Shown here piece after piece: positions 10,383 to 63,539 of a stretch of DNA of 64,000 nucleotides (the stretch's first letter is position 1; every line of letters starts with the position of its first letter). The translations under genes were made by a program, and so were the position numbers. The DNA is from Psococerastis gibbosa (Eukaryota > Arthropoda > Insecta > Psocodea > Psocidae): positions 45,195,469 to 45,259,468 of the forward strand of contig OZ020485.1 in assembly GCA_963971405.1 (NCBI GenBank), written 5' to 3'. The notes below the pieces were generated by a model. It was not told where the DNA came from. It did not search any database and saw only the letters and a list, made by a program, of their open reading frames with translations.

Positions 10383-10640
10383 CGCCGGAGTCATATGATG
10401 AAGAAGTAGAAGTAGAATCCGGGCTGATCGGCCGGGGTCGATCTGAAAGCGAACTTACAAACGTTTCGTCAACATCTGCGGTTTACATCATCAGTGGCTC
10501 TACGTGGACAACTAAGATGGCATCTCGGGAGATGAGTAGCACTGAAGATGTCGACCGCAGATGCGGATGAAACGTTTGGGAGTACGCTTCTAGATTACGA
10601 CCACGACTCGGATTATACTTCTGCATCACTGGCCGTATGT
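10383..10640. mobile_element. Head-to-head pair of Penelope-like terminal sequences, no ORF
   Basis: Two inverted copies of the terminal sequence found at 62600 and 63400 face each other with only about 40 bp between them. Each arm has AACGTTTCGTC or its complement and AGAATCCGGGCTGAT. Hammerhead-like cores lie at 10457-10497 (minus) and 10539-10579 (plus), both with mismatches in a stem. Confidence 0.75.
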
Positions 10641-16700: not shown

Positions 16701-19700
16701 AATTTGTAAATCCTCTGCAAAGGATTCTCATAGTGACCTTTAAATATAAATAACTCTCGAGAGCGAGTGGCCCTCACGTTTACTCTAATTGGAAATAATT
16801 CCAAAATTTGTGGACTGTCAAGTAGTTTAAGACATTATACACAAACATGCAGTCCAACACATCTCTCCTAGATTTTAAGGTTGAAAAGTTAAACTCATTC
16901 ATCATTGATGAGCTGCGGACAGGATGGCGCGAATAAGATATTTAACTTTTATGAAAAAGCTACGGTACCCAAAATTAAAAATACCCTATTATATGATGCA
17001 TGAAGTAGTCTTCTACAACTTAAATGAGCCAAATCTTGAACTTTTAATGACTTGTTTAGTTAATTAAATAAAAAATAGGAATTATTAAATTTCGTGATGC
17101 CAATTTCCTACGGGATGTTCACTCGTAATAACTTACTTTTGACCCATTAGGCACAAGATCGGCAGTTTTGATAAGCTGCCCGTTGGCACAGTACTCCTCC
17201 TCGGCAAAGTACAAGTCCATCTCGTCCACATTGTGCTCCTCAATGTATTTGACTTTGTTCAAGTACAGGTCCGGGTCGTCCTGCTCTAGGTAGTGGTAGT
17301 GGACTCTTAGGCCAATCAATTGTGCGAGGAAGCTTCGGGTGAAGCGAGCGCGGACTAACTGCCTGAAAATAATAAAATCAGGTACTGAACACTGCGATTT
17401 ATCAGTTAATAAGGGCGTCCAGTCGTAGCCAAGTGACGTTACCGACGGCAGCAGCACCTTCCCGGCCTTATTCAAACTGACATAAATTTCTTTTACAAAT
17501 AGTAAAGCACTGAATCTCCCATAATTCTGGAAGTAGCCTACTCATTCCTCATTCCGTTCAAATGCAAAATTATAATTAAAAATTAAATAAAGTAACAGCA
17601 TTTTCAATGTTACTAGCGAATAAACTATTTCTATACAATTCGAAATGATTTCCTATTTGGTTATGTACAGCCCGTAGGAAAGTGGCAGCCCGAAATTTAA
17701 TACTTTTTATTTTTTATTTACTTAACTAAGCATGTTATTAAAGATTTGGCTCATCAAAATTGTAGAAGACTACTTCATGCATCATGTAATAAGGTATTTT
17801 CAGTTTTCGAAATTGTAGTTTTTCTATAAAATCGTTAATACGTGAAAAGTTATTGTTTCTAAAATATTTGCATGTTTCTGAAAAAACTAAAATTTCGAAA
17901 ATTAAAAATACCTTATAATATGATGCATGAAGTAGTCTTCTACAACTTTGATGAGCCAAATCTTTAAAAACATGCTTAGTTAATGAAATAAAAAATAAAA
18001 AGTATTAAATTTCGGGCTGCACACTCTTAACGATTAATTTGTAAAAACAATGAGACAAAGATTTTGAATTTCGGTGGGAGCGCTTTCAGCACCGCCGTGG
18101 ATAAATCCACTTGGCAGAAAACTGGCCTGGGTGTGGCTCTCACCATCTTGGTTGGTAAAGGAGCGGAAAGTAGAATCTCAAGGGAGCATAGGAATAGGGA
18201 AAACAAATGGCGGTTTCCTTCGCATATAGTATAACTACGCTGAGTTGACCCATACGTCAGAGCGTTGCGATGCTTGTCACTTGTAAGAGCAGTGAGAAGA
18301 AATTTATTTCTATTACTAAGCCAAACTAGCGGAGTTAGGGCTATAAAGCCCTCTCTTACACTCAACTAGGATGACCCGGGACCACTTGCTTTACATGCCC
18401 TCCGAAGCATGGCCAGAAAATGTAGCCAGTGTGGGACTCGAACCAACAACCTTTCGGGTGAAAGATAGTCATAAGACTAAGCATCAGGAAACAGTACCAA
18501 AAAACCTGGGTTCCCAAATCGTGATGATAATATTATATTTGTCTATGGACAGTTTGCACATCCTAAAGTAGAGGTTTACCTGTACGTGCCACCAAGAGCC
18601 GACTCATAAAGACACTTGCCAACAATTTTCCCAGCAAATTCAAAGTGCTTGAGTTTGAGATGAGGCGGTCTGCGAGGGTTCGGATGAACAAGAGCTTGTT
18701 GGGAGTCGGAAAAGGCGGAGAACAGCCCGTTCCGCGAGTCGAACAGCGCCGAGCAAACCAAGCCGTACCATTCGCGACGAACACCGCCATAATCGAGACC
18801 TGTGACAAAAAATGTATTATACAGACACCGGTGGAGAACTGGACAATGACATGGAAGGTCGAAGTTCGAGATGAAATGAAATTTTTTCCGCCGGGACTGG
18901 ATCCATTCATAGGCGGATAAGGAGGGCATTCACAGGGCATGCAATGAAACAGCAAAAAATTTGTGAATGGGATTATCTTGGAGGTTCTCGCCATAAGCTA
19001 AATAAAGCTATTAAGATTACCCAAGGTCAAGTGCGCAGAACTTACTAGGCATAAATTTTGTTGTCACCCTAGTGACCGAATTGTTCATTGGTTTCTCATT
19101 TGCCGCTGTTTTTTATGTTGCAAACCTACATTTCTTTTCACCACCTTTGCGATTTCCCACTTCGATTCACTTTGATCTTAATCTAATGGGCGCGTTACAT
19201 TGATCGGTATGGAAAAATGGCAGGCGTGTTGCTGACTATAACATTCCAAGTAGAGGAGAGGTGGAGAAAGAAGAGCCTCTACGAGTCCTCAGACTTACTC
19301 CCTCTTAGGGTCGACTATAGTTCTATATAGGAGAGATGGGACATTTGAGTGCACCAAAAATATTATTTTTTTATTATTTCTGGGGTCATCGGCCACGTCT
19401 TCTATGTGACCAGGGACCAGTCAATGGAAAGATGTAGCAGGTGGTCCCAGGATAAAAAAATATTTTTGGCGCACTTGAATATTCCATCTCTCCTATAGAA
19501 CTATAGGGTTGACAAGCTGCAAAGTTACTTTTCTTTTAAAAAACGTGTAGGGTGACTGACAGTAAACTCAAACGGACATAATTGTCTGCTTCAAAGTATC
19601 ACCATTTCTCTAGCATCCAACGAAAATGATTGTCGATAAGAAATTCTCCGGCACAAACTCAGGACCACCTTAGGTAAGAATACTCCACTTGTTTGTCTCA

Positions 19701-22700
19701 GCCCAAACACCGAACATAACATAATATAATATAAAGTATATACCATAACACATACCCAACATACAGTATGTATAGTCCACGCAAAATGAGAAAAGTATGG
19801 ATTTGGAATGATTTGGTACTGTGCGACACTGTAACAATTTCGATTGCACCATTTTGTTATGCCTTGCATCCAATGCATTTCCCCTATACAGATATAATGA
19901 AAACACTTAAGACTGTTTTATTCGAATGTTGTATACAAAACTACAAAGCTTCTGTATTCCATATTAGATGTAAAAGGGCATCAATGCGGATACGTCGGAA
20001 ACTAGATCGTAGGGTGTCATAAAGTAAAAACATGTTCATCTTAGTTTTGGTATACAGTATGTGGCCGTTAACTTTTGGAACTCATCCTCAGTGGCTGATA
20101 CTATTGGCTTCTCAGAACAGCCTCGGAATTATAGGGATACGATCTCTGCAAGATATGCGCAGCATTCATCTGCATTTCCACATTACAATAAATATATTTA
20201 CATAGGCCAACACTTGTTTTGTACCTGTTTTTCGACAGTCCTGTTGGACTCATTTTGTTTTTCGTTGAAACAATAGGGATTTGATAAGGAGAGACTAGTG
20301 GAGCGCACATCAGAATTAATTGAGCCGCAAATATGCCTACTTCTGGAATAGGCTACCTAAGGTATATTATAATATAGCATCCCGGTGCTAGTGAAGGCTG
20401 GGTGAGTAACGTGCTTTTTCTATCAACGAAAGCGATGAAGGACTGCAAACTGCAATACAGATTATCATGAGGACATAACAGTGACAGCCCATATTTTCAA
20501 AGAGTAGGTTGAGACACAATTACTTTGGCCGATACAATATCAGTTGTGGTTATGGATAACGCCCGTAGCCCCGTAGCATAGTAGAATGTTGCAGAAGGTA
20601 CCTTCAATGCGATGGCATTAATGGCAACCAACGGCCTGGATATACCACAGAATAAGCCCGTTCTTATTGGTAAAGACTAATTTTTTAACATTACCTTAAT
20701 TAGGGCCAGCCTAGAACCTATGCTGAGGCCGCATGCAATGCACAAAAAAGACCAGAGCCCTGGAAGAATAGTCCTTTGCTTTTGAGTGGTGAAAGTGCCT
20801 TCTATGGTCGGATTTGTAGAAAACATAGAAATAGGAATAACCATACTCCTAAGGTGCTGGCTATTCCGCTTGTCAGTTTTTCTTCAATTTTGAAAATTTC
20901 ATTGACGGAAATATCATAAATGTTGCATATATATTTTTACACCTCATTTCACTTGTCTTCAATAATTGACGATTTTTGTTTTCAAGCGGAATTTTTTTTC
21001 AAGCGGAATAGCCACCTCATGAGTAGAGGAAGAAGAACGCAATGATCCACAGTAAAATACTTTAATAGTGACCGGTTTCGGATAAAATCCATCATCAGAC
21101 TAACAACACATAAAAAACGCCAGCTTATATACTACGGGATGGGAGTGGGAGGTGGAGGCGGGGGTTGAGTACATAAATCGAGTAGTGGGGATACAGTTTG
21201 AAACATTATATCATTCGTAAGAACATCGTTATTCCTAATAGCCTTTCTAATCTCTAAGCTTTCTAACCTGTCTAATAGTCTACCTTTATTACAACAATGT
21301 AGAATTTTAAAATCTTCAAAATTACATGAGTGCGAGTTACTTGAGAGGTAGGGCAACAACAGGCAACTAGAAATGTTTTTAAAGGTTATGAATGACCTCC
21401 ATCCCAAAATCAAGTTCACCATGGAACTCGAAAGTAACAAGTCGTTAAATTTTCTCGACCTCACTATTACTAGATTAGATACTGCCCTGTCTTTTAATAT
21501 TTCCAGGAAACCGACTCACAGTGACTGCGTGATACCAACTTCTTCAAACCACCCTCCATCCCACAAGGCTGCTGCTTTCCACTCCATGGCACATCGGATG
21601 TTCAGTATCCCTATGAGCGAAGTCAACTTCAAGGCCGAGAGACGTACTATACTGGAGATAGGAAGAAACAACGGGTACCAGGAAGGCGACACAGAAAGGA
21701 TCCTAAGGAAACATGAACTCAAGAGCTTAGCACGGATGGTGTACGCAGGACAAGACGTTACCAAGGAGAAGAAGCAGTACGTCAAGATCCCGTTCATAGG
21801 AGAAGTCAACATGAAAGTAGGAAGACTAATAACCCGAACTACTAACAAAGTTGTATCCTTTAGCTGCCCGCCCAACTTAGGAGAATTCCTCATCAACTGT
21901 AAGAATAAGGTTAATAATAATAGGAAATCAGGGGTTTATAAAATTTCTTGTAATTAATGTAGTGCGAGTTACATTGGACAGAGTGGACGCAATTTTAAGT
22001 TTCGCTTACGTGAGCATAAAAATGCGATCGGTAAAAATGACTGTACCTCAGCTTTTGCGGACCACCTCTCAATGATGTTCTCCAAGTTCCACGAAGTCAC
22101 CAAGGAAACTCTCACAAGGAATAACCACCTAACCACCTCTCAAGTAACTCGCACTCATGTAATTTTGAAGATTTTAAAATTCTACATTGTTGTAATAAAG
22201 GTAGACTATTAGACAGGTTAGAAAGCTTAGAGATTAGAAAGGCTATTAGGAATAACGATGTACTTACGAATGATTTAATGTTTCAAACTGTATCCCCACT
22301 ACTCGATTTATGTACTCAACCCCCGCCTCCACCTCCAACTCCCATCCCGTAGTATATAAGCTGGCGTTTTTTCATGTGTTGTTAGTCTGATGATGGATTT
22401 TATCCGAAACCGGTCACTATTAAAGTATTTTACATTTTTACTGTGGATCATTGCGTTCTTCTTCCTCTACTCATGATGTTCTCCAAGTTCCACGAAGTCA
22501 CCAAGGAAACTCTCACAAGGAATAACCACCTAACCATATTTTAATGTGTTAACTTCGGGGCAGTTATGGGCATTATGGATACGGTAATATAGTAACACAT
22601 AAAAGGGACACAAACTGATTTATTACATCTATTGGATGTAACATGCAGCTTGCAAATGAACATAATATGGTTGAATTTAATACACTGGATACGGTACGTA

Positions 22701-25700
22701 CTCAACTCATTTAACATTTAATTCAGAAGCTTAGAAGTTTTGGCGTAAACAGTATCAGCCACTGAGGATGTCAGGCTGATTGAGCTCCAAAAACTAGTCT
22801 ATAGCCATTTGGTGTTAGTCACGGGCATTTACTGTCTACCAAAACTAAGATGAACTTATCAATTACTTTATGACACCCTACGATCGAGTTTCCGGCATAT
22901 CCGCGTTGATGCCCTTTTCACATTTAACTTAGAATACAGAAACTTAGAAGTTTTGTATACAACATTAGAACAAAACAGTCCTAAGTGTTTTCATTGTATC
23001 TGCATAGGGAAAATGTATGGGCAGCAAGGTAACACAGAATGGTGCAAGCAATATTTTTACAGTGTTGTACAGGATCAAAACATTCCATGTCCATACTTTT
23101 CTCATTTTGCGTGGATTATACAACTTTAATTATTTTGTAAATATTAAATAACCAATAATAAATATTTAACAGTAATAATTTAATAATATTTAGGGTTAAT
23201 TAGTGTTAATAATTATATTAAATACAAATATTTTGATTAATATCAGGAAATAATACGTACGGATACTAAAACACGGATACAAAATGGCGGATGACAATAC
23301 CTGTCCAGAAAACAGTGATCAGCATAGACATAGTAAAACTAGTTTTATTAGCTCCATGGTGATCAGAGGTGACGAGTGTACCAACATACGCGACTAATAT
23401 CGAGGTTCTATTTCTATTTTGTTGGCAGCTTCATTCTGTGAACTTTTGAGTGTTACAGATGCGGGCGCATCCTCAAAATTCACTCTCGATCGTAAAGAAG
23501 TATAACTTCAATAATAATAAATAATAACGAAGAAGAGGAAGACAAAGGAATTAACTAAGGAGATAGGAGATACAGAATCCAGATTAAGGACTATCTCAGA
23601 AGAGTGGGACTGGTACCAGAGGAAGTGTTGAATAATTAGGAGTGGAGAGAAATGTGGGAGGAGGCCCACATATCACACCCGGGCAACTGCAGCTGATAAC
23701 TGATGATATTGTAGATGTTTCTGACTTTTTACGCTACAGCCTACCGTTAACAATGGCGGGCTGCAATGGTTTGAATACGCTAGATTTCTATATAGGAGAG
23801 ATGGGACATTCGCTGCCGTCAAGGATATTTTTTTTTTTAATTTCCACCTCCTGCCTCTTTTTCTTCGACGACTCAGAGTATACCTTGGACAAAAAACAAA
23901 AAATCGCAAAAGGCGTATTTTCATTGGTCAAAAGTACACTAATCAAGAGTTCGAAACAAACAAAATTATAGTTGAAATGGATTTCACTCAAAAGAAGAGG
24001 TAACTTTCCAATATACCTGTACACTGATATCAAAATATCTCCGGTTCTGTAATGGTGATGACAATGGTTCCCTCCCCCCCCCCCTTCCCCCCGTATATAT
24101 ATTTTAGCCTTTTTTCCTCTCTTCCTCTCTTGTTTCTTCTCTATTTAATTTTAAGCATTTATCAATAATACAATATATATTTTTTTTAGGGTTAGTATGA
24201 AAACAAGACTTTATAGTCTTAATGTTTTCCTTTTGTTTCTTTTTCAATAAAGTAGTTTCAATTCAATTCACCAATTTTCAAATTAGCTGAAATACGCGCC
24301 ATTCTTAAAAATGACGCATCACACGTAAATAAAAAACACGGCAGCCTCCTTATGATATCATTATATATGATTTTATTGTATCAATATAATAATAATAATA
24401 ATAATTTTTCTAGAATGGCACTTATTTTGGCTAATTCGGACATCAGTATCTTTTTTATTTTTTTAAAAATAATCTATGAATCTTTGGATATTAGTGTAAA
24501 TTTGAAAGTTTTCTCTATTTTCACGTAGAACCGTTTGAGCCAATAAACCGGACAACTTTTCCAAAAGTTACAACTCTACTGGGCGAGCCCTAAATTGGTC
24601 GAAGAAGACGTGACAGGAGGCACCGTAAATTCAAAAACATTCATGTGGCGGGAGCGAGTGTCCCGTCTTACCTACTGTATATAGAACTCTAGAATACACT
24701 ACAGTGCACATGCGAACTACAGTGGGCTTACCCTGCTCGCCATGGAAACCAACTTCAAGATTCCGACACCAATCCGACACTGAAAAACTTTTTGTCACCT
24801 TCATAGAGCTCTCTAGCAGCCGGTCGCGATGCACACGGATCACCAGCCGCTCATGTTGGTGTTTCATGTGCAGCCTGCGCACCTCGTGGTAGAAGAAGTC
24901 CTGCTTGTCCTTGAACGTTTCCGAACCACCAATGTTCTTGAGCAGGAAGTGCGTGAATGTCGCGGCGATGACGTTGCGGTCATGCGACGCGAGCTCCACC
25001 CGTGGCTGGCAGCCATCGTCGACGATAAATGTCGGCCACGGGTGTTGGTTGTTGTCCTTTTGGAAATGAAACTGCAAGAATAATTAAAGAATGCATTTTT
25101 CTAATCGGGACCTTGCTTGTTGCTTGGAGCTAATCCAATACCATCCGTAGAGCTCTCTAAAATATCACAACGGAAGAAATTTTTCTGAGGATTTTGACAC
25201 ATTATTATTATGTAACAAAGATTGGCGATTGAATTTGTACAAAAAACGATTGGTGTGGTAGTTTACTATTTTGTGCCTATATTTTCAATATTGTCGTCGG
25301 GACAGGCCTTCAAACCTTCCGATGTGCAGCACTAATATACTTACTTTTTCCACGCCTAATCCTCATGGAGGGTCGCCGGCACGACAGCAGCGTTTCAACA
25401 CAGTTCTGTCCTGTGTGTCCTCGGTGGAGAGCCCCAAACTTGTCATATCCCTGGCGTTCTTTCTTCCCAGTGTAGCTCTCGGCCTCCGTGGTGGCCTTCT
25501 TCCTTGTATCCCCCGGTTCGTTACTCTTTTCACTAGGTGCTTTTCGCTTCTACGTAGTACGTGCCCCCACCAGTTCAGCCTCTTTTCTGAGTTTCTCCAG
25601 TACGTCCCGGGTTCTCATCTCTTGTCTTATGTCTTGGTTTCTACGTTGGTCTACGTGGCAGCACTCATATGTTATTTTTTAATCTAAATTTTCATTCGTT

Positions 25701-42399: not shown

Positions 42400-42570
42400 C
42401 AAATAATCGTTAGAAAATTAAATTAGTCAAAGAACGCCACTAGTATTAGTATAAACCCTGAGCGCTTTCGGCATGAACTGCCAATCTACAGAGGGAAACC
42501 CACTAGTGCAGTTTCACCTAATCAACGATTTGAGAATTGCTCAACCTGAAAGGAAGATGCAAATACTTCT
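42400..42570 (+). repeat. Dispersed repeat K, copy 1
   Basis: CCCTGAGCGCTTTCGGCA and CTACAGAGGGAAACCCACTA are shared in order with 49085-49235. Confidence 0.65.
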
Positions 42571-49084: not shown

Positions 49085-49235
49085 TAAAACCCAAATAATC
49101 GTTAAGAAATTAACTTTGTCTAAGAAACCCACTTGTGTTAGTATAAAACCCTGAGCGCTTTCGGCAAGAACTGCCATCTACAGAGGGAAACCCACTAGCA
49201 CAGTTACACCTTATCGAGGAGAAGATGCAAATGTG
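49085..49235 (+). repeat. Dispersed repeat K, copy 2
   Basis: Same blocks and order as 42400-42570; directly abuts the MITE at 48577-49081. Confidence 0.65.
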
Positions 49236-56869: not shown

Positions 56870-57005
56870 ATGTAACTGCAAAGGCTTTCACGGCCGGAGT
56901 CGAATGAAAAACCAGTAGAATCTGGGCTGATGGACCGTGGTCGAAATGAAAGTGAACTTCCAAACGTTTCGTCAACATCTGCAGATTCTACTGGTTCTTC
57001 ATTAT
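56870..57005 (-). mobile_element. Penelope-like terminal-sequence fragment
   Basis: On the minus strand: GATGTTGACGAAACGTTTGG, CATCAGCCCAGATTCTACTG and CCGTGAAAGCCTTTGCAGTT, as at the 3' end of the element at 62600-63530. The 5' half of the hammerhead-like core is missing. Confidence 0.75.
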
Positions 57006-62599: not shown

Positions 62600-62655
62600 A
62601 TGAAGAACCAGTAGAATCCGGGCTGATGGGCCGTGGCCGACATGAAAGTGTATTT

Positions 62656-62696
62656 CCAAACGTTTCGTCAACATCTGCGGTTAACATCTTCAGTGA
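62656..62696 (-). ncRNA. Hammerhead-like motif, left arm of Penelope-like element 2
   Basis: Minus strand: TCA, CTGAAGA, T, stem II GTTAAC/GTTGAC (one G-T), loop CGCAGAT, GAAAC, GTT, TGG. Stem I TCA/TGG pairs with one wobble. AAACGTTT is self-complementary. Confidence 0.55.
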
Positions 62697-62766
62697 CGCT
62701 GCGTAGACTTCGAAGGTTGTACCTCGTTGGCTCTGTAGCGTGTGACTGGGTCATAACATCAAAACA

Positions 62767-63175
62767 GTGTTCAAGCCTATGCAACAACTCCAAAGCATGA
62801 TAAGATCAGCCAAGGATCAGAGAGACCCATTAACATCAGCCGGTGTGTACCGAATTCCTTGCTCTTGTGGTGAAGTACACATAGGTACGACTAAACGCAG
62901 CGTAAATACGAGGATAAAAGAACATAAACGAAGCTGCCGCCGTCTACAACCGGAGAAGTCTGCGTCTGCGATTGCCGAGCACGTACTAACACTATCTGGA
63001 CACACGGTGCACTACAAACAGGCGACTGACTGTCTTGTCACGGGCTACTCAATATTTCCCCAGACTACACAGAGAAGCTATTGAAATATACAAGCACCAA
63101 CACAATTTCAACAGAAAGGAAGAAGGCTTAAAGGTGAACAAACTCTGGTATCCGGCGCTGAACAAAACAACAACA
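62767..63175 (+). pseudogene. Penelope-like GIY-YIG endonuclease fragment, frameshifted
   Basis: SAGVYRIPCSCGEVHIGTTK and RSVNTRIKEHKRSCRR show the GIY-YIG layout (GVY ... HIG ... R-x-x-EH, with HIG where YIG is usual), then SAIAEHVLTLSGHTV. Near 63050 the frame shifts and continues as REAIEIYKHQHNFNRKEEG and NKLWYPALN. One shift separates the two halves; no RT precedes it. Confidence 0.85.
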
Positions 63176-63276
63176 AAAAGGATGACGTCAGCCAATTGTG
63201 AAAAACAAGGTAATGGAAATTCCCCAGAGGAATATGTATATGTTGTGTTGAGAGCGAGCCAATCCTTGCTCTCAAC

Positions 63277-63303
63277 ACAACAACAACAACAACAACAACA
63301 ACA
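63277..63303. repeat. (CAA)n microsatellite
   Basis: About nine CAA units inside Penelope-like element 2, after the end of coding. Confidence 0.9.
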
Positions 63304-63398
63304 AGTCAACAACGTCCACGTATAAAGGTCAGTGCGCACTGCGCAGCCCCCTACCCAGTAAAACGCTACGGAGCCACCGAGGTACAACCTACGCAGGG

Positions 63399-63439
63399 CC
63401 ACTGAAGATGTCAACCGCAGATGTTGACGAAACGTTTGG
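63399..63439 (+). ncRNA. Hammerhead-like motif, right arm of Penelope-like element 2
   Basis: CCA, CTGAAGA (63402-63408), T, stem II GTCAAC/GTTGAC with loop CGCAGAT, GAAAC (63429-63433), triplet GTT, TGG. Stem I CCA/TGG and stem II pair perfectly. GTT is a permitted but weak cleavage triplet. Confidence 0.6.
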
Positions 63440-63539
63440 AAGTTCAATTTCATTTCGACCACGGCCCATCAGCCCGGATTCTACTGGTTCTTCATTCGAC
63501 TTCGGCCGTGAAAGCCTTTGCAGTTACAAATTAGGCTAA

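Follow-up and report, generated by a model that had tools for sequence, protein, structure and literature searches.

A truncated Penelope-like element (PLE) with a hammerhead-like ribozyme motif in each of two inverted arms was found within an AREL1-like gene of Psococerastis gibbosa, in a 64,000-nucleotide stretch of contig OZ020485.1 that is referred to here, as a whole, as the window. The explanation that best covers all of the evidence, and which we consider probable, is that these motifs are dimer-type PLE hammerheads lying at the start of the element mRNA, that insertion is primed from both DNA ends, and that the RNA templates used for insertion are mostly left uncut. Comparison with related copies in the source genome revealed that the motif overlaps an AUG, that the arms have discrete outer ends 3' of the predicted cut, that head-to-head arms end as one short and one long arm, and that the predicted cleavage site has mostly been copied through.

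Identical hammerhead-like motifs in an inverted PLE insertion

With up to three mismatches allowed, CTGATGATGGATTTTATCCGAAACCGGTCACTA had exactly two matches in the window (21066-21098 on the minus strand and 22387-22419 on the plus strand) and none in shuffles (0/100). Together with a TAGT prefix it makes up a motif of 37 nucleotides (nt), identical in both copies and placed, as had been predicted from the window alone, in inverted arms that are 98 to 99% complementary (21112-21349 with 22135-22372, 99% over 238 nt; 21052-21117 with 22368-22433, 98% over 66 nt). Each copy can be parsed in the type I hammerhead-like manner originally proposed, with stem I TAGT/ACTA, core CTGATGA, one extra T, stem II GGAT-TTT-ATCC, GAA, and the self-complementary ACCGGT, followed by a C at the predicted cleavage site. 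Target duplications of 13 bp, 12/13 identical by eye, bracket the insertion, which belongs to family A (see below) and has the following features.

21005..21017, plus strand: left target-site duplication GGAATAGCCACCT, differing from the right copy at one position (by eye)
~21018-22518, plus strand: family-A Penelope-like insertion, truncated (limits by eye)
~21018-21349: inverted left arm with short tail (limits by eye)
21066..21102, minus strand: left-arm hammerhead motif, stem I to stem I; predicted cleavage between 21070 and 21069
~21350-22518: right arm, with 5'-truncated open reading frame (ORF), repeat, and long tail (limits by eye)
21373..21957, plus strand: open frame of 194 amino acids (aa), reverse transcriptase (RT)/endonuclease (EN) linker region of the PLE
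21964..22155, plus strand: GIY-YIG endonuclease remnant (PF01541, E 3.2e-4, 21.4 bits against a cut-off of 22.6)
22353..22359, plus strand: TATATAA, first base 63 nt upstream of the cleavage site
22383..22419, plus strand: right-arm hammerhead motif; predicted cleavage after 22415
22384, plus strand: probable transcription start (position -32), from the inner-end peak (12/84 arms, ribozyme-independent sample)
22393..22395, plus strand: AUG made up of A9, the extra U, and G10.1, at the start of a frame that reads MDFIRNRS..., with the predicted cleavage in codon 8
22519..22531, plus strand: right target-site duplication GGAATAACCACCT (by eye)

The motif lies just upstream of the RT ORF. The 194-aa frame itself had no Pfam match; an RT ORF linked to a GIY-YIG endonuclease (PF01541, slightly below the curated score) was found, as were repeat ends of the pseudo-long terminal repeat (pLTR) kind, with inverted arm, tail, and target-site duplication (TSD), the last by eye. 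The PLE ORF has a YVDD motif, which we take to be that of the RT. An exact 64-bp repeat (22072-22135 and 22473-22536), which comprises the long tail plus the right target duplication with flanking bases, has one copy within the ORF, with CCTCTCA on both sides, and the other at the right end; it may have arisen by tandem duplication plus deletion or in the assembly.

Copies and families in the source genome

The source genome comprises 409 Mb, and motif counts in it cover stems that begin with GG and end with CC. The form with the extra U, CTGATGATGG...CCGAAAC...GTC, occurred at 1,090 genomic places, compared to 0 for a reversed-pattern control, and thus the conservation in other copies that had been anticipated was borne out. 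A base other than T followed CTGATGA at 42 places (control, 0), and this stem class without any extra base was found at 0 places genome-wide. Many of the 42 places carry an identical family-B form, CTGATGAGGGTATCTTACC, with G at this position (e.g., G000:C1:23013416-23013444). Another genome motif search gave 1,629 matches (801 + 828) versus 115 + 70 in the control, with only the first places listed.

A protein search with the window ORF yielded 1,359 candidate relatives, of which 150 were scored, with open frames of up to 923 aa; the frames of L011 (frameshifted) and L048 continue into the GIY-YIG part. Families A, B, C, and D are clusters at about 95, 63, 50, and 45% identity to the window ORF, family E consists of copies at 52 to 54% (two read), and families F to J are additional motif forms from the motif searches. 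Insertions of family D (L097-L104; G000:C1:40673287) have target duplications of about 11 to 12 bp and open frames of up to 923 aa, and this family is probably recent. Two pattern matches, one in viral contigs (L001) and one in genome contigs (L002), were set aside by eye as chance matches, neither flank resembling a PLE.

One short and one long outer end in each decidable head-to-head pair

Seventy-two of 75 distinct ribozyme-bearing arms continued past the predicted cut into element sequence, and their outer ends were discrete: 39 were short and 31 long; of the other two arms, one continued into the ORF and the second ended at 83. A second sample was drawn with a 25-nt exact anchor at +11 to +35 from the cut, which had 478 places in the genome and provided 99 usable arms of the 100 listed. 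These arms were chosen without regard to the ribozyme; by construction they end beyond the cut, arms shorter than the anchor are unseen, and the chromosome-C1 part includes loci seen in the earlier inspection. In the anchor sample, 54 outer ends were short and 45 long. In family A, the short and long ends lie about 55 and about 98 nt past the cut, respectively.

When the two arms of head-to-head insertions of families A and B were considered together, all decidable pairs (62/62) consisted of one short and one long arm, both ending 3' of the ribozyme, for which the probability would be about 1e-19 if the ends were drawn independently. The count leaves out six pairs too near a locus edge and the three-ended L011, whose outer two ends are likewise short and long. 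Some loci look alike, L051/L052 and L013/L014 having the same arm spacing and L121/L122 nearly the same; counting each such set, possibly a single event, once leaves 59 pairs. L013/L014 and L121/L122 are short insertions on one chromosome with a shared inner junction, which points to segmental duplication or to re-mobilized head-to-head copies. Family-B loci picked for one known long arm, from a sample in which 40 of 880 candidates were scored and long ones were favored, had a short other arm in 6/6 cases. The same arrangement was present in 4/4 family-D insertions, in L035/L036 and L059/L060, and in the family-J insertion of the window described below.

These ends correspond to features already reported for other PLEs. 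The anole PLE Poseidon_Ac (PAc) has two internal RT start sites, located in the first part of the ORF, and its enzyme cuts and extends both DNA strands (PMC11167929). The rotifer element Pen2a_Av is likewise described with an inverted pLTR, TATA and initiator (Inr)-like motifs, a TSD, and a 31-bp tail on one inverted pLTR (PMC3846280), so that a tail on one of the two is already known; it is, however, called optional there, whereas here every decidable pair had it on one arm and one arm only. No fuller statement of the one-short-one-long rule was found in open-licence papers, as far as their available text goes. The rule fits priming from both DNA ends, as judged from the sequences of the insertions.

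The inverted arms might instead have arisen by self-priming, that is, by fold-back of a single cDNA, and we regard this as a serious although unlikely alternative. Self-priming is what the authors of the rotifer study favor, from palindromes at inverted junctions (PMC3846280, whose available text has 0 uses of the word ribozyme), and some of the junctions examined here are near-palindromic by eye. Nothing about a fold-back copy, however, would make it stop at the other RT start site, and yet every one of the 62 pairs combined a short with a long end. Moreover, target duplications of about 11 to 13 bp were discerned by eye in four family-D pairs and in the family-A and family-J copies of the window, and the activity of the anole enzyme on both strands (PMC11167929) also argues for priming from two DNA ends.

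Inner ends point to a transcription start at the ribozyme and to uncut templates

The inner end lay within the retrieved sequence for 84 of the 99 anchor-sample arms. Family-A inner ends were concentrated at one position upstream of the cut, with 12/84 exactly at -32 and 15/84 at -33 to -31 (P = 4e-11 for the -32 peak under a uniform spread) and at most five at any other position. The peak had been noticed first in earlier loci; in the loci of chromosome C2, which were fetched afterwards, 5/44 inner ends were at -32 and 8/44 at -33 to -31, partner arms included. In families A and B, TATATAA starts at -63, which is 31 nt before -32. We read -32 as the transcription start because a copy ending there would have run off the 5' end of the RNA, and the element mRNA thus probably begins with the ribozyme. 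A fixed distance from TATA to ribozyme was considered as a general rule and rejected, as it holds in families A and B only. Inner ends of family A cluster at a second place as well, five being at -17 and 11/84 at -19 to -15 (the loop and adjoining stem II); in several pairs the arm ending there is the long one and its partner extends to about -32.

The cleavage site was crossed by 87/99 arms (15 of the 87 extending past the retrieved sequence), and four arms started at it. Since most arms cross the cut and so few begin there, the insertions suggest that cleavage is not a usual step in the making of templates. A first sample, mostly selected by ribozyme, had 0/100 inner ends at the cut and one at +3; it was replaced by the anchor sample, whose figure (4/84) is preferred because selection for the ribozyme hides arms that start at the cut.

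That the ribozyme cut makes the 5' end of the retrotransposition template is the opposite proposal, and it has some evidence on its side. The four arms, from three insertions (L120, both arms of L134, and L162; 4/99), start precisely at the base that follows the predicted cut, a count about four times the local rate of roughly one per position (P = 0.015), and 5'-end processing has been considered the most likely role of self-cleaving motifs in other retrotransposons (PMC7761336). Some cut templates may therefore be used. As an account of templates in general, this proposal nevertheless seems improbable to us, given the 87 arms that run through the cut and the position of the inner-end peak at -32 rather than at the cut (12/84). 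In the anole PLE, moreover, mutation of the hammerhead ribozyme (HHR), which is described as protein assisted, does not affect insertion, and the available text of PMC11167929 reports RNA sequencing without reads that start or end at the cut.

Overlap with an AUG and covariation of the stems

In every family read, the extra U completes an AUG (A9-U-G10.1). The frame that it opens runs for 48 codons in family A (L044, flank included), 262 in family B (L011, up to the frameshift), 65 and 77 in family D (through MKYHEVT), 14 to 61 in family F, and 37 and 43 in family J. An overlap of this kind is already known, because the ORF of the anole PLE begins at stem II, with C3 and G8 preceding the start codon (PMC11167929); the families here that differ from the anole element in this respect are C and E, which have a two-codon frame at the AUG. 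The view that the extra U exists in order to make the ORF start codon was weakened by these two-codon frames and by the G-form of family B, and the AUG was kept as an overlap only.

A structure scan of the window, designed after the families had been inspected, found five motifs, whereas 30 first-order random windows averaged 0.03 and never contained more than 1. Twelve motif forms were then parsed by hand, a MAFFT alignment of the same pieces having been dropped because it misplaced stem III. Across these forms, 38/48 stem I pairs were complementary (shuffled mean, 29.3; p = 0.003), as in TAGT/ACTA, ATGT/ACGT, GCAC/GTGT, and CCCT/AGGG, and pairs 3 and 4 of stem II were complementary in 21/24 cases (shuffled mean, 11.2; p = 5e-5), as in GGAT/ATCC, GGTA/TACC, GGC/GCC, GGCA/TGCC, GGTG/CACC, and GGGAGT/ACTCCC; the twelve forms are related, and these p values are thus guides. 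Stem II had at least 4 bp in 18/37 extra-U forms versus a shuffled mean of 6.3 and a maximum of 13. The core CUGANGA...GAAA...NUH is exact in the window copies and present in 10/12 forms. On this evidence the motif is a conserved structure, with covariation in stems I and II between PLE families.

The near-absent, self-complementary stem III that had been predicted was also recovered. Its strand is fully self-pairing in 10/12 forms (ACCGGT, AGCGCT, ACAGCTGT, ACAGTTGT with G-U pairs, and ACGT) and 75% self-pairing in forms H and I. ACCGGU and ACGU are too short for a hairpin, and helix III could form between two copies since the strand pairs with itself in most forms. The modelled ribozyme fold of family A had an energy of -13.3 kcal/mol as a dimer compared to -1.8 as a monomer, and the minimal dimer-acting form originally suggested is consistent with these values.

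Minimal dimer-acting type I hammerheads of PLEs have reportedly been described by Cervera and De la Pena in 2014 and by Lunse, Weinberg and Breaker in 2017. A near-absent helix III is described for PLE hammerheads in PMC6155905 and PMC7761336. The motifs studied here share with those hammerheads the place in the pLTR, the core, and the near-absent helix III, with no categorical difference, and we assign them to this already described kind. Type I hammerheads of the metazoan retrozymes of newt and axolotl also have a short helix III and cleave better as dimers than as monomers, but those are small nonautonomous tandem repeats with circular RNAs, in contrast to the ORF-bearing PLE considered here (PMC7229834).

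A number of observations weigh against the explanation given above, in addition to the arms that start at the cut. In a textbook type I hammerhead, A9 is directly followed by helix II; here an extra nucleotide lies between them, and 2/23 distinct forms with a stem of at least 4 bp pair without an extra base. Rfam cmscan of the whole window at gathering scores returned no hammerhead match, an outcome that the original prediction had itself named beforehand as speaking against it, and at E ≤ 10 a search of 20900-22600 found no hammerhead and, over the motif, only a snoRNA model at 17.2 bits (gathering score, 35). In both the extra nucleotide and the lack of an Rfam match, the motif departs from the textbook form. 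Single-strand folding of the motif was no better than that of shuffles (z = 0.20 for 41 nt and 0.97 for 71 nt), and the free minima differ from the ribozyme folds (-17.3 kcal/mol for the dimer and -5.4 for the monomer). Stem I is complete (4/4) in only 5/12 forms (A to E), stem II has fewer than three pairs in two (H and I, with 2 and 1 pairs), a core residue is changed in two families (A6 to U in D and C3 to U in C), and the extra U is replaced by G in a recurrent form of family B. The AUG cannot start the RT ORF in families C and E because a stop follows after one more codon. Evidence for the start site is limited to families A and B, the family-D TATATAAA lying farther upstream, and 3 of the 75 distinct arms, all divergent (L003, L061, and L080), could not be assigned for want of a clear match past the cut.

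Some of these points, namely, the unremarkable monomer fold and the lack of an Rfam match, together with the overlap of the block with both the probable start site and the AUG, speak for the view that the block owes its conservation to a role as DNA (a promoter or initiator element) or as the beginning of an ORF rather than to a working ribozyme. We think this rather improbable because stems I and II covary across families that differ in loops and lengths. Between families A and B, the paired change from GGAT/ATCC to GGTA/TACC keeps the pairing while altering D to V and I to Y, and families C and E retain the motif although the frame stops after two codons. A downstream promoter element was likewise dropped as the reason for conservation, since the length of stem-loop II differs between families.

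Host gene and other PLE pieces in the window

Minus-strand frames resembling AREL1 flank the element (24634-25083, 6loh, E 1e-17; 17122-17541, 6loh, E 9e-23; comparison with PDB); the element is thus intronic in an AREL1-like gene, and the left-arm motif, on the same strand, is in the sense of the host gene, in agreement with the original prediction. A role for this motif within the AREL1 transcript, such as cutting of the intron, is scarcely credible despite its orientation: it is of the dimer type and present as a single sense copy, the right arm can pair with it (99% over 238 nt and 98% over 66 nt), and the same form recurs at 1,090 genomic places. An effect on AREL1 is therefore unlikely, and this copy is most likely a passive, truncated, and inert insertion.

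Other PLE pieces in the window include the following motifs.

49153..49183, minus strand: family-D PLE hammerhead-like motif with CTGTAGA core and AGCGCT stem III
62659..62693, minus strand: family-J PLE hammerhead motif, left arm, short tail
63402..63436, plus strand: family-J PLE hammerhead motif, right arm, long tail

The family-D fragment at 49.2 kb begins with the inverted long tail, and another at 42460-42491 (minus strand) has the same changed core, CTGTAGA, and the same stem III, AGCGCT. The family-J motifs belong to a second PLE insertion (62600-63527), with one motif in each inverted arm, a short left and a long right tail, a target duplication of about 11 bp, and a GIY-YIG remnant (PF01541, E 0.011, below the curated score). 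More family-J pieces lie at 10430-10580 and 56870-56990, the one at 10.5 kb also being head to head.

Proposed mechanism and implications

In the mechanism that we favor, the element promoter would start transcription about 3 nt before the catalytic core, and the mRNA would begin with the ribozyme. Retrotransposon mRNAs with a 5'-terminal ribozyme are known from another ribozyme class and another element class. The element enzyme would then cut both DNA strands, and each 3' end would prime reverse transcription 3' of the ribozyme on a separate RNA: the short site (about +55) would serve one DNA end and the long site (about +98) its counterpart. The two cDNAs would meet head to head to give the inverted arms, and each arm long enough to reach the ribozyme would carry one copy of it. 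Because most templates appear uncut at the ribozyme, cleavage may be slow or conditional (dependent on a dimer or on protein) and would not be needed to make the template; it would act mainly on the mRNA, from which it would remove the capped leader together with its AUG. The completion of the AUG, the probable start of the motif at the transcription start, and the location of both insertion ends 3' of the ribozyme had been missed in the original prediction.

A stronger version, which we put forward tentatively and which may well prove wrong, is that PLE insertion obligately uses two RNA start sites, one per DNA end, on RNAs whose 5' end is the ribozyme, and that the hammerhead is a 5'-leader switch. 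Such a switch would overlap the transcription start and the AUG, could remove the cap and the AUG, and would normally be left uncut on templates. If true, one scheme would account both for the inverted arms and for the as yet unexplained role that hammerheads play in PLEs. The ends of insertions in a single genome provide a natural archive of the RNA ends that were copied, and head-to-head PLE insertions put ribozymes on both strands of host genes.
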